The notes beneath the pieces are model-generated. The model worked only from the letters and a program-made list of their open reading frames with translations, was not told the origin of the DNA and searched no databases. A program made the position numbers and the translations under genes. 64,000 nt of DNA from Streptomyces luomodiensis (GTDB lineage: Bacteria; Actinomycetota; Actinomycetes; Streptomycetales; Streptomycetaceae). Shown one piece after another: positions 13,497 through 18,105 of this stretch. Location: positions 7,750,001 through 7,814,000 of the forward strand of contig NZ_CP117522.1 in the NCBI RefSeq assembly GCF_031679605.1. Reading direction: 5' to 3'. Within the stretch, counting starts at the first letter, position 1. Each line of letters starts with the position of its first letter.

Positions 13497-13630
13497 AAGA
13501 TCGCCGCATGCTGGAACACGAACGGCTTCATGACCACGCACCGTAGCGTCGTGGCGGTGAACAGGCGTCCATAGCAGTCGAGTTGAGCACGGCCGACCGA
13601 GGTCATTCGGATTGGTGGTGGAGGCGAGCC

Positions 13631-15099
13631 ATGAGAAAGGCACGTGCGGGTCTTACGGCGTTCGAGGCCCGTGCGGGAGAGGCCGCGCGGACTCTGCTGC
13701 ACAACCAGGGCTACGACGGCGGGTGGGGTCTCACGCTCACGTCGGTGTCGTCGATCGTCAACACGAGTGAGGTCCTTCCGATCCTGCGGGCTGCCGGCCT
13801 CGCGGGGCAGCCGGTGCGCCAGGCGCTCGACTTTCTGACCGGCGCCATTCCGGGGCACTGCCGACCACGTCACAAGGGCGGTCGTGGCGAGCACACCCGC
13901 TTCGTCGCCTTCGGTCTGACCGGACTGCTGTCGCACCCACGTTTCTTCCACCATGACGGTGTGGTGGAGGCCGCGGCCTGGTGCGTCGGCTGGCTCGACG
14001 ACCATCGCGTCGACCACGGCTGGCCCGAGGTACTCGGTCTCGACGACACCTCGCTGCACCAAACCGCCCTTGCAGTGCACGGGCTCGCCCAGCTCAGGGA
14101 CACCCTCCACGAACTCGGCCCGGGTCTCGTCCTCCCCGGCGGAGTGGACACCACGAGCCTGCTGGGGCGAGTCGAGCCACTGATCGACCACGGCGTCCAC
14201 GGTCTTCTCTACCACCGTCGACCCAGCGGCGCCTGGGGGTGGCGCACCTACGTCGATACGGACCCGAGCCCGAGCAAGACCGCGCTGTGCCTGTTGGCCC
14301 TCTCCGCGGTTGCCTCCGGGGCCGGTCCCGGAGGCGAACCGGCCTACCGGGACGCGCCCCGGGAAACCGGAAGCGCCCACGGCCCGGTGCGGAAGAAGCG
14401 GCTGTCCGAGGCGGTCGTCGAGGCCGGGCAGTGGCTGCTGCGCAACCACCACCGCTGGGAGACCTTCGTCGAGGACGACAAGGACGTACAGGGCACTGCC
14501 TGGGAGCATATGGCGTACGCGCTGTGCACCCAGGCCGCCATCCGGCCGGCGCCAACCCACACGATCCCCGGCTGTCCAAGGCGTGGCGGCTGATGGACGA
14601 CCTGTGGGAGCCCGAGGCCGGGATGTGGAACGAACCCGGCGCATCCGGCAAGCGTTCCACTATCCGCGCGGCGTACTACACCGTCTCGGCCTACCAGGAG
14701 GCCCTCGGCCGTCTCGCCCGGATCGGCCTCGGCGAGGAGGCGGCCGGGTCCGGTGACAGCGACATTGCGGCGGAGATCCCCTTGAGGAGCGCTGAGCTTG
14801 CCGCTGGGTACAGGGTCCTGCTGACCACACCAGACATCGACGGCCCGGTCGTGTGTGAGCTGTCGGAGCGGCTGTTCGACCTGGCGAAGGTCGTGCACGA
14901 CGGCCCCGGCGAGGGCATGTCGACCGAGCAGATCGCCCAGGCGCTATTCGTTGCGCCGTCCTCGGTGCCCAAGTACGTCCAACGCCTGAACCAGGCGGTG
15001 TCCGCCGCCCTCGGCGGCGCCCCGGCCCGGCTGCTGCTGCCCGGCACCGCGAACGGGGTCAGCGGCTACGCTTGGGCGCGCTCGAAGGCGACCGGGTAG
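13631..15099 (+). pseudogene. Alpha-toroid (prenyltransferase/squalene-oxidase-repeat-like) plus winged-helix protein, frameshifted
   Basis: ATG 13631 follows GGAGGCGAGCC. The first frame runs to 14593 and encodes an alpha-helical repeat protein with QGYDGGWGL, RRPSGAWGWRTYVD and EDDKDVQGTAWEHMAYALC motifs, typical of terpene-cyclase-like alpha/alpha toroids but lacking a clear catalytic Asp motif. After CGG at 14543-14545 homology-like sequence jumps to another frame, giving AGANPHDPRLSKAWRLMDDL, TIRAAYYTVSAYQEAL and a final winged helix (MSTEQIAQALFVAPSSVPKY) ending at 15099. One missing G near 14546 explains this. It could be a true mutation, a sequencing error or, less likely, programmed shifting. 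The joined product would be about 490 residues. Its last 34 bases overlap the convergent NUDIX gene. Confidence 0.7.
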
Positions 15100-15599
15100 T
15101 TCAGCAGGGCGAAGCGTGCCAGGGAACGGACCTGCTCGAAGGTCGGCAACTGCTCCAGGTCCTCCAGGCCGAACCACCCGGCCCCGTGCACCTCCTCCAA
15201 CTGTGCCTCCACGGCCTGCTCGCCGGTGCCCGCCTGGCGGCGGACGTAGAAGAACTGGGCCAGGGCGGGGGTGGCGAACCCTTCCCGCTCGATGTCCACG
15301 TAGAACGGTGTCGGCTCGGGGGTGGCGTTGTCGTCGGCCGGATGGATGGCGGGCTGGCTGGAGATCGCCTCCACCAGCAGGCCGGTCTCCTCCTTGAACT
15401 CTCGCACCGCTGTTCCGGCGAAGGACTCCCCGGGCTCGATGTGGCCGCCGGGAGGGACCCACTTGTCGAAACGGTTGTGGTGGACGAGCAGCACTTTGCC
15501 GCGCTCGACGAGGTAGCCCGAGCAGATGTACACCAGGCCGATGTCGCGGGCGGTCCGGCCGTCGTGAATCAGAATCGAGCGAGGCACGCCCGCCACCAT
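15066..15599 (-). CDS. NUDIX hydrolase
   Basis: A 177-residue protein from ATG 15599. The NUDIX box is complete: GGHIEPGESFAGTAVREFKE followed by ETG, giving G-x5-E-x7-RE-x2-EE-x-G, which binds the metal and cleaves nucleoside-diphosphate-X compounds. The substrate is unknown. It is divergent from the radical SAM gene across the operator array at 15651-15706 and convergent with the toroid gene. It may be a housekeeping or nucleotide-signal hydrolase that happens to flank the RiPP locus, or part of it. An in-frame upstream ATG at 15692 would add 31 residues that do not look conserved. Confidence 0.88.
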   Translation of the reverse strand: MVAGVPRSILIHDGRTARDIGLVYICSGYLVERGKVLLVHHNRFDKWVPPGGHIEPGESFAGTAVREFKEETGLLVEAISSQPAIHPADDNATPEPTPFYVDIEREGFATPALAQFFYVRRQAGTGEQAVEAQLEEVHGAGWFGLEDLEQLPTFEQVRSLARFALLNYPVAFERAQA

Positions 15600-15650
15600 A
15601 GCCCACTCGCCCGTTCCCGAACTCGGGAGCACCGCCGAGGACTTGACCCG

Positions 15651-15706
15651 GATGTCATCGGATGCCGGATGACACGTCATCGGCGATGACATCGCAATGT
15701 CATCGC
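15651..15706. promoter_or_regulatory. Dense GATGAC/GTCATC operator array before the RiPP locus
   Basis: Within 56 bp there are GATGTCATCG (15651-15660), a perfect dyad GATGAC-AC-GTCATC (15668-15681) and a longer perfect dyad with 10-bp arms GCGATGACAT (15683-15692) and ATGTCATCGC (15697-15706) around CGCA. Centre-to-centre spacing of the two dyads is about two helical turns. The array sits between the divergent NUDIX and radical SAM genes, about 100 bp from each, so it is a strong candidate operator for a cooperative dimeric regulator. Confidence 0.7.
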
Positions 15707-15802: not shown

Positions 15803-16969
15803 ATGCGCACCCGCACTCGCACCCCAGGCTGGCGTGCCCGTTACGACCAGTGGTTCACGGCCCCGCAGACTGTGGTTGTCCAGCCCACGACCTGGTGCAA
15901 CCTCGACTGCCATTACTGTTACCTGCCTTTCCGCAAGCTTAGGCACCACATGGGCCCGGACGTCGCCGCCGCCCTGGCGATGTCGGTCGCCCAGCTCACA
16001 GCCGGCGGCGGCCCGCCCATCGGGATCGTTTGGCACGGCGGGGAGCCCCTCGCGATCGGCCCGCAGAAGTTCAGCGCGCTGCTCGCCCCCTTCGAGGATC
16101 TGCGCCGCGCAGGCCGCGTCCACCACTACGTGCAGACCAACGCCACCCTGATCACCGACATCTGGTGCGAGCTGTTGACCGCATACGACATTCGCGTGGG
16201 CGTGAGCGTCGACGGCCCGGCCGCCTTGAACACCGAGCGGGTCGACCTGCGCGGCAAGCCTGCCTTCCACCGGATTCTCCACGGCGTCCGGCGACTGCGT
16301 GCGCACGGCATCCCGTTCTCCGTGATTTCGGTCGTGGCCACCGAGTCCATCACCCAGCCCGAAGAGCTGCTGCGATTCCTGGCGGAGCTGGGCTGCCACT
16401 CGGCGGGGTTCAACATCGAGGAGGTTGAGGGTGTCAACACCCACCGGCAGTCGCCCACGCCTGCGCAAGCCGAGGAGTTCTGGTGCCGCACCCTCATCTG
16501 GACCCGCTCCCACGGCGACCGCCTGAAGGTGAGGGAACTTGAACGCCTCGCCGAGTACTTGCACCTGATCCGCTCTGGACAGCGCGCCGCATGGGACGAG
16601 CGGCGCCTCGATCCGATCCCCACCGTCTCCGTCACCGGTGACGTGGTGCTGCTCTCCCCGGAGCTCGCGGGCACCACCGATCCTGCCTACGAAGACTTCC
16701 GTGCCGGCAACATCCTCGACCAGCCCCTGCCCGTGATCTTGAGCGGCGCGCACCGACTCCGCTACGTCCGTGACTTCCTCACCGGCCTCGACCGCTGCCG
16801 GGGCGGGTGCGCCTTTTTCGACTTCTGTCGCGGCGCCCAGGCCGCCAATCGCTACTTCGAGAACGGCAGCCTGAGGTCCACCGAGACCAACTACTGCCGG
16901 GTCTCCCGGCAGGCCCTGGTCACGGCCCTGTCCACCCTCGCAACCAAGGAGAAAGGGCAAGCAACATGA
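15803..16969 (+). CDS. Radical SAM/SPASM peptide maturase (likely cyclophane-forming)
   Basis: A 388-residue enzyme. C32-x3-C36-x2-C39 (CNLDCHYC) binds the radical SAM 4Fe-4S cluster. WHGGEPL and VSVDGPAALNT are later core motifs. The C-terminal SPASM region holds C332-x3-C336-x5-C342 and a final NYCRVS cysteine for auxiliary clusters. The overlapping downstream gene encodes a short peptide rich in aromatic-X-Asn motifs, so the enzyme probably links the aromatic ring to the beta-carbon of the third residue, as described for three-residue cyclophane (triceptide) maturases. ATG 15803 follows GGAAGG at six bases. The stop codon overlaps the precursor start (ATGA), so enzyme and substrate are translationally coupled. 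Homology to AmcB- or FxsB-type maturases is recalled, not checked. Confidence 0.9.
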   Translation: MRTRTRTPGWRARYDQWFTAPQTVVVQPTTWCNLDCHYCYLPFRKLRHHMGPDVAAALAMSVAQLTAGGGPPIGIVWHGGEPLAIGPQKFSALLAPFEDLRRAGRVHHYVQTNATLITDIWCELLTAYDIRVGVSVDGPAALNTERVDLRGKPAFHRILHGVRRLRAHGIPFSVISVVATESITQPEELLRFLAELGCHSAGFNIEEVEGVNTHRQSPTPAQAEEFWCRTLIWTRSHGDRLKVRELERLAEYLHLIRSGQRAAWDERRLDPIPTVSVTGDVVLLSPELAGTTDPAYEDFRAGNILDQPLPVILSGAHRLRYVRDFLTGLDRCRGGCAFFDFCRGAQAANRYFENGSLRSTETNYCRVSRQALVTALSTLATKEKGQAT

Positions 16970-17157
16970 CACTGCTCGACGGATTAACCACTTCCGACGC
17001 CCCGGTCGTGGTGGACTTGATCTCCACCCACATCGCTTCGGTCCCGGTGGCTACTGGGGAGACATGGGACAACCGCCCCACATGGGACAACTGGCGGAAG
17101 AGTCCCGCACCTTTCGATAATAGGCCCACATGGGACAATTGGAATAAGAAGAAGTAG
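16966..17157 (+). CDS. RiPP precursor peptide with six aromatic-X-Asn/Lys cyclophane motifs
   Basis: A 63-residue peptide. Residues 1-31 form a leader (acidic/hydrophobic VVVDLISTHIASVPVATG). The core, residues 32-63, is two imperfect copies of [WF]DNRPTWDNW. Candidate three-residue ring sites are W34-N36, W40-N42, W43-K45, F50-N52, W56-N58 and W59-K61. The peptide ends with three lysines. W-D-N is a known substrate motif for cyclophane-forming radical SAM enzymes, and precursors with several such sites are, as I recall, annotated as multiple-cyclophane RiPPs (AmcA type). AAGGAG precedes the ATG, which overlaps the maturase stop by four bases. No protease or exporter gene is seen next to it. 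The product is expected to be a rigid, basic, Trp-rich peptide. Confidence 0.9.
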   Translation: MTLLDGLTTSDAPVVVDLISTHIASVPVATGETWDNRPTWDNWRKSPAPFDNRPTWDNWNKKK

Positions 17158-17232: not shown

Positions 17233-17919
17233 ATGGGAACCCGCACGATCCGCCGCACGAGCGTCACCCTGCCCTCGCTGGACGAGTCCGGCCTGTATCT
17301 CTCCCATGTCACCTCGCTCGAAGGCGGTCGTGGCCGGGTCGCGGAGTTCCACTACGGCGACGCGGATCTGCGCGCGCTGGACCTGGCCGACACGCACCTG
17401 ATCGATGGACGGATCTCCGGACTCAAGACCCAGCGCGCCCGGCTGGAGAAGCTCCGCGTCGACTCTGTGGAATTCACCGGGTGCGACCTGTCTTCCCTGC
17501 GCTGGGTCGACAGCAAGGTCACCCGTGCCGTCTTCCGAGACTGCAAGCTGATGGGCGTCATGTTGGAGGACATCACCCTTGATGACGTTTTGTTCGAGAA
17601 CTGCAAGCTCGACTACAGCACCCTCACCCGCGTCCGGGCCGTCGGGCCCGTGATCTTCTCCCAGTGCTCCCTGCGCGAGACCACGTTCGACGCGGCCGAC
17701 CTGAGTACAGCCGCATTCGACGGCTGCGATCTACGACTCGCCGAGTTCGACGGCGGCACGTACCACCACCTGGACCTGCGCGGCAACGACCTTTCCCAGC
17801 TCCGCGGCCTTGCCTCGCTCAAGCAGGTGATCATTGACCACGGACAGACGCTGCAACTGGCCGAGGCCCTCGCCGTGGAGCTCGACGTCACCTATGGCGA
17901 AGACCTCGGCGACAGGTAG
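17233..17919 (+). CDS. Pentapeptide-repeat-like right-handed beta-helix protein in the RiPP locus
   Basis: A 228-residue protein from ATG 17233, seven bases after GGAAGG. The body reads as consecutive turns with a hydrophobic residue at the centre: ADLRALDLADTHLIDGRISG, VEFTGCDLSSLRWVDSKVT, AVFRDCKLMGVMLEDITLDD, VLFENCKLDYSTLTRV and AAFDGCDLRLAEFDGGTYHH. This is the A(D/N)LXX-like pattern of pentapeptide repeats. Such helices can mimic DNA (Qnr, McbG, MfpA, AlbG) or act as scaffolds. It starts 75 bases after the precursor in the same direction, so it is probably cotranscribed. Self-protection against the peptide, or scaffolding, are both possible; neither is shown by the sequence. Confidence 0.85.
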   Translation: MGTRTIRRTSVTLPSLDESGLYLSHVTSLEGGRGRVAEFHYGDADLRALDLADTHLIDGRISGLKTQRARLEKLRVDSVEFTGCDLSSLRWVDSKVTRAVFRDCKLMGVMLEDITLDDVLFENCKLDYSTLTRVRAVGPVIFSQCSLRETTFDAADLSTAAFDGCDLRLAEFDGGTYHHLDLRGNDLSQLRGLASLKQVIIDHGQTLQLAEALAVELDVTYGEDLGDR

Positions 17920-17946
17920 CCCCTCACTCGCCCTCAGGAGGCCGCC

Positions 17947-18105
17947 ATGGGTCCGCGGCTCTTATGCACAGCGTTCGACGACGTATGCGGCCGGTGTGAC
18001 ATCACACCGGTCCGGCTGACCCACGGTGAGCCCGGCTACGACGAGGCGCCATCGGCCCCGGCGGCGACTGGGCGCCCCTCACCGCCGCCGAGGCGGTGTA
18101 CGTGA
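17947..18105 (+). CDS. Small CxxC protein (hypothetical)
   Basis: A 52-residue frame from ATG 17947 with a strong CAGGAGGCC ribosome site 27 bases after the pentapeptide gene stop. It starts MGPRLLCTAFDDVCGRCDIT and continues PVRLTHGEPGYDEA, so it has a C-x2-C knuckle (CGRC) and one further Cys on each side. The last 20 residues are Pro/Arg-rich and may be out of frame with an ancestral end. It could be the last gene of the RiPP operon or a truncated zinc-ribbon protein. I do not recognise a family. Confidence 0.45.
   Translation: MGPRLLCTAFDDVCGRCDITPVRLTHGEPGYDEAPSAPAATGRPSPPPRRCT

Follow-up and report, generated by a model that had tools for sequence, protein, structure and literature searches.

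The window, i.e. the whole 64,000-nucleotide stretch of DNA that was analysed, contains an intact AmcB and AmcA pair of a catalogued cyclophane RiPP family, followed by a gene for a pentapeptide-repeat protein (PRP) and by the remnant of a fourth gene (Table 1). Among relatives the PRP is linked to AmcA and has outlived the biosynthetic genes at several loci; it points to self-immunity and suggests a first target to test. On balance, we lean slightly towards the reading that AmcB makes four to six rings in AmcA and that the PRP serves self-immunity, possibly at a type II topoisomerase. The first-pass annotation had the precursor and its maturase right, but it missed the two genes that are most telling on function, the downstream PRP and the fourth gene lost from the window. 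The PRP linkage gives a testable lead to what AmcA-type peptides do, and the fourth gene is a probable tailoring step that coexpression of two genes would miss.

Table 1. Coordinates of the cassette features in the window
Feature	Position	Strand	Profile match or remark
AmcB, cyclophane-forming radical SAM peptide maturase, 388 aa	15803..16969	+	NF041718, Pfam Radical_SAM
ATGA overlap, AmcB stop/AmcA start	16966..16969	+	AmcB TGA at 16967-16969
AmcA, 63-aa precursor	16966..17157	+	NF041721, 76 bits (cut-off, 40)
Core block 1, WDNRPTWDNWRK, three candidate rings	17065..17100	+	
Core block 2, FDNRPTWDNWNK, three candidate rings	17113..17148	+	
PRP, 228 aa, pI ~5.0, proposed immunity protein	17233..17919	+	Pfam PF13599, 1.1e-26
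Fourth-gene 5' remnant, ~50 codons	17947..18094	+	Rest missing in the window

The AmcB and AmcA genes and their neighbourhood

AmcB scored 502 bits against NF041718 (cut-off, 425 bits; match given from 15785) and 63.6 bits against Pfam Radical_SAM (PF04055). Its ATG at 15803 was picked by eye from the upstream GGGAAGGA. The radical SAM CxxxCxxC is present at Cys 32/36/39, and the C-terminal Cys 332/336/342/365, a candidate SPASM-type cluster site, are invariant in 32 aligned AmcB; no Pfam SPASM match is listed for the protein. The AmcA ORF starts with the ATG at 16966 and ends with a TAG stop at 17157. Since both proteins pass curated NCBIfam cut-offs, AmcA/AmcB are known in kind. By these profile scores, the pair is a member of the family already catalogued in NCBIfam as 'multiple cyclophane-containing RiPP', which supports the earlier proposal of a RiPP precursor with its radical SAM maturase. 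AmcA/AmcB cyclophane RiPPs are reportedly the subject of an article by Phan and Morinaka in ACS Chem Biol in 2022. The ATGA coupling of the two genes, also proposed earlier, was found as described, because the AmcB stop codon and the AmcA start codon share these four bases. The same offset of -3 was seen for 27 of the 32 AmcA measured in relatives.

AmcB above the NF041718 cut-off was found in 31 of 297 genomes of the taxonomic family, and the gene order of the cassette is kept beyond this family, elsewhere in the order and the class. The closest AmcB found in named species, with 92-93% identity, were those of Streptomyces rugosispiralis and S. samsunensis; the source genome itself is a single 10.04-Mb contig. 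S. samsunensis (L033) has intact AmcB and PRP, but the reading frame of its AmcA is disrupted within the core. One locus (L088:3894-5207) carries AmcB and an AmcA-like core in a single 437-aa ORF, an apparent natural fusion of enzyme and precursor if not an assembly error. In six other AmcB loci (L058, L063, L085, L086, L050, and L051), different short ORFs take the place of the precursor; they end, for example, with FGWANWAKKK in L058 and with AWNHFENIPTFYNWNNRPR in L085 and L086.

Beyond AmcB, PRP, and the fourth gene, each gene cluster obtained with a crude gene caller was confined to at most 9 of 33 loci, so that a transporter or protease common to the loci was not seen; the cluster present in 9 loci reads as HTH regulators by eye. 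In the window, the region 13583-14593 (+) gave a weak squalene-cyclase-like match (E 0.018) and 14593-15099 (+) an HTH segment. The two lie in different frames here and correspond to a single ORF (489-520 aa) in each of six relatives (L032, L033, L046, L048, L057, and L067), in which this ORF and the Nudix gene (15066-15692 (-) in the window) accompany the cassette.

Candidate rings in the AmcA core

An alignment of 31 AmcA (A2), from which the broken L033 and L034 were dropped, places the leader at approximately residues 1-32 and the core at approximately 33-63. All six aromatic-X-Asn/Lys motifs of the first-pass annotation were read in the window, i.e. WDN (17065-17073), WDN (17083-17091), WRK (17092-17100), FDN (17113-17121), WDN (17131-17139), and WNK (17140-17148), so that 6 of the 6 core aromatics have N or K at +2. 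This 6/6 pattern was reached in 16 of 200,000 shuffles of the 32-residue core, and a chance origin of the motifs was ruled out on that basis. On the other hand, the 'two tandem decapeptide blocks' described earlier were not found: the units are two 12-mers that agree at 26 of 36 bases and follow each other at a spacing of 16 residues, with SPAP between them, and a decapeptide repeat is thus ruled out. The word 'cationic' applies to the core in the window (+3), but net charges of -5 to +3 rule it out as a trait of the AmcA family.

Triceptide links are described, in an excerpt of one paper (PMC11002830), as joining residues i and i+2 at Trp/Phe and Asn, Arg, Asp or Ser. A2 contains 184 W/F beyond residue 23, of which 170 are followed by N/K at +2 and 178 by N/K/D. 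At W34, W40, F50, and W56, every one of the 31 rows has an aromatic residue, and 123 of the 124 cells have N at +2, whereas the WRK site is W/F in just 11 of 31 rows (Y in one) and the last (WNK) site is aromatic in 25 of 31. Because only the former four sites are invariantly aromatic in A2, the safest estimate for AmcA is four rings, with six as the maximum. Distant AmcA loci beyond A2 vary more, with H in L087 and one block in L081. The same site counts would suit the formation of four rings only, in two xDNRPTWDN pairs, with WRK and WNK staying open. However, the W/F at these two sites still have K or N at +2 in 31 of 36 cases (K in 10 of 11 at the WRK site; K or N in 21 of 25 at the last site), and we rate a strictly four-ring product as a serious possibility a little short of an even chance.

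The linked PRP and the fourth gene

Of the 35 loci whose AmcB and AmcA are both intact, 34 have the PRP 3' of AmcA, in three of them (L082-L084) as a shorter and divergent form; the exception is L062, which has no such PRP. The PRP was present at 0 of the 8 AmcB loci that lack an AmcA match. None of these 43 AmcB loci had been retrieved via the PRP, and a random neighbour is ruled out by 34/35 versus 0/8. The counts of PRP linkage and of fourth-gene scraps cover the window and L035-L097 (64 loci; L032-L034 stand outside), and these loci are partly non-independent, L093-L096 being near copies, as are L038/L041/L042, with L094 and L096 in one genome and L044 and L076 in another. PRPs are common in Streptomyces, and the PRP profile gave matches in 221 of 297 genomes. 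The AMC PRP is a distinct subfamily among these, found in 38 places at 243.8 bits or more, with the next match at 125.6. The long-core loci (L035, L036, L039, L049, L053, and L055) form one supported PRP clade. Five lower-scoring PRPs that were read (L098-L102) resemble each other, and the AMC PRP may derive from a chromosomal PRP such as these.

The structure model of the PRP (pLDDT 94.5) has the pentapeptide-repeat beta-helix, and a C-terminal helix (203-216), a candidate for the helix by which gyrase-protecting PRPs (Qnr, MfpA, AlbG, and McbG) dimerize, is predicted in the single-chain model. Its first PDB match by sequence was EfsQnr (3.9e-12), and its nearest solved relatives include gyrase-protecting PRPs, whereas designed solenoids came first for the two other Streptomyces PRPs compared with the PDB (2 of the 5 controls L098-L102). 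The best structural Z was obtained with a Clostridium PRP. The PRP fell far below the curated cut-offs for Qnr (38.3 vs 240 bits) and MfpA (31.2 vs 360 bits). Since PRPs share the fold, structural matches alone are no proof of a gyrase role, and gyrase is not the site of action of every PRP.

A PRP without AmcB was found in nine places, namely 8 of the 38 and L090 from a class-level search. Its frame is intact in 8 of the 9, the exception being L078 with a broken start; degraded PRPs are under-counted here because the search used a full-length PRP model. AmcA scraps lie beside the orphan PRPs of L073, L074, L076, and L077, and fourth-gene scraps beside those of L075, L076, and L077. The PRP alignment (A1) was made without L034, L044, L068, and L070, which are broken, cut or with N. 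On the PRP tree (48 rows), the orphan label requires nine changes, 8 of them forced by supported branches, and is no more clustered than shuffled labels; the tree counts label changes and not their direction, and that orphans arose by AmcB loss is an assumption. Among the 51 loci at which the PRP matched in full or in part, AmcB is incomplete in 6 and missing from 9. In L066-L069, AmcB is broken and AmcA and PRP are there, the PRP of L068 running into N. In L044, AmcA is gone and a shortened PRP begins at the start site of AmcA; a full-length orphan PRP lies elsewhere in this genome (G114; L076).

The nonsynonymous to synonymous changes numbered 103:83 on seven orphan branches (56:65 without L080) and 59:80 on the sister cassette branches; in the absence of selection, 2.2-2.8 to 1 would be expected. 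As a set, the orphan branches, which also span time before the loss, are less constrained than their sisters (103:83 vs 59:80, Fisher p 0.025), and this difference is driven by L080. The L080 PRP has an approximately neutral ratio (47:18), which would mean either decay or a new role. The dN/dS between orphans and their nearest cassettes was 0.26-0.55, and nearest cassette pairs had a median of 0.31.

The fourth gene was present in 29 of 31 loci having AmcB, AmcA, and PRP all intact. The idea that this third gene cluster consisted of out-of-frame PRP readings was ruled out on reading its members, and it is a real fourth gene, although some members (such as L093) are extended out of frame at the front. 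No Pfam or NCBIfam match was obtained in the five members scanned. In the window, 17916-18094 has 75-77% identity to the spacer and the initial ~150 bases of the fourth gene as it stands intact in L046/L057, and the remnant gave a 17-bit profile match over positions 3-41 of 241.

Proposed function and comparison with known systems

In the proposed mechanism, AmcB would bind the AmcA leader and join a ring carbon of Trp/Phe to the C-beta of the Asn/Lys two residues on. Four to six three-residue rings would result, and the product, after leader removal and export, would be a triceptide from which the adjoining PRP shields the producer. In most relatives, the putative oxygenase of the fourth gene would further hydroxylate the peptide, a step that the window would have lost. 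By analogy with McbG, AlbG, and Qnr, the PRP might act at a type II topoisomerase. This is the weakest step, and gyrase as the site of the PRP or the target of the product is only a lead. Rather doubtful is the broader proposal that AmcA-type peptides form a class of type II topoisomerase inhibitors with a dedicated gyrase-protecting PRP and usually a hydroxylating oxygenase, whose PRPs persist as orphan immunity genes after the loss of production.

The strict linkage of the PRP to AmcA, and its co-divergence with the core type as seen in the long-core clade, would be expected of a biosynthetic partner, i.e. a scaffold, carrier or chaperone that holds the unmodified or cross-linked peptide and is needed for the product. 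However, such a partner should not keep an intact frame in so many places without AmcB, and L062 does without it, so that this role appears quite improbable. The peptide might instead be a signal or developmental factor with no antibiotic activity, with the PRP acting downstream of it as a regulator or receptor; that the crude gene calls showed no transporter or protease shared across the 33 loci fits this idea, as does the statement, in an excerpt of a 2025 paper (PMC12257519), that the bioactivities of triceptides are not yet elucidated. On the other hand, a receptor is unlikely to outlive its signal so often, and the gyrase-protecting PRPs among the nearest solved relatives also speak against this account, which we consider unlikely.

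Decay of the cassette in the window, with no mature product, would be consistent with the reduced fourth gene, with the broken AmcA frame in the close relative S. samsunensis, and with the partial or absent AmcB at some of the 51 PRP loci. It too seems unlikely, since AmcB, AmcA, and PRP are all intact both in the window and in L032. In the open literature searched, no paper was found on a PRP with triceptides or radical SAM cyclophanes, nor on radical SAM cyclophanes with topoisomerase; the PRP linkage or the fourth gene may still have been described before, for instance in the 2022 AMC paper.

The gene order and overlap in the window are the same as in the AmcA/AmcB of relatives, but the fourth gene has been lost. 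AmcB is kin to the triceptide maturase GrrM/OscB (254.9 bits) and lies below its cut-off of 310; by curated models, the maturases of the other triceptides (XncB, OscB/GrrM, MscB, and FxsB kinds) belong to different families. The leaders of these triceptides also differ from that of AmcA. The fourth gene probably encodes a 2-oxoglutarate/Fe(II) oxygenase: its profile matches the 2-oxoglutarate oxygenase MicC (as named in PDB entry 9vkm) over 121 positions (E 1.8e-12), and the two have HxD and HDGST in common. The MicC pathway was not found in the open literature searched.

The PRPs McbG and AlbG lie within the gene clusters of microcin B17 and albicidin. Excerpts of two papers describe cognate protection by PRPs against these gyrase-targeting products (PMC7897471) and the use of PRPs to guide mining for topoisomerase inhibitors (PMC9231227). 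In both systems, the PRP has the role that is proposed for the PRP of the window, whereas the chemistry of microcin B17 and albicidin is unrelated to that of AmcA products, for which gyrase is a possible target by analogy.
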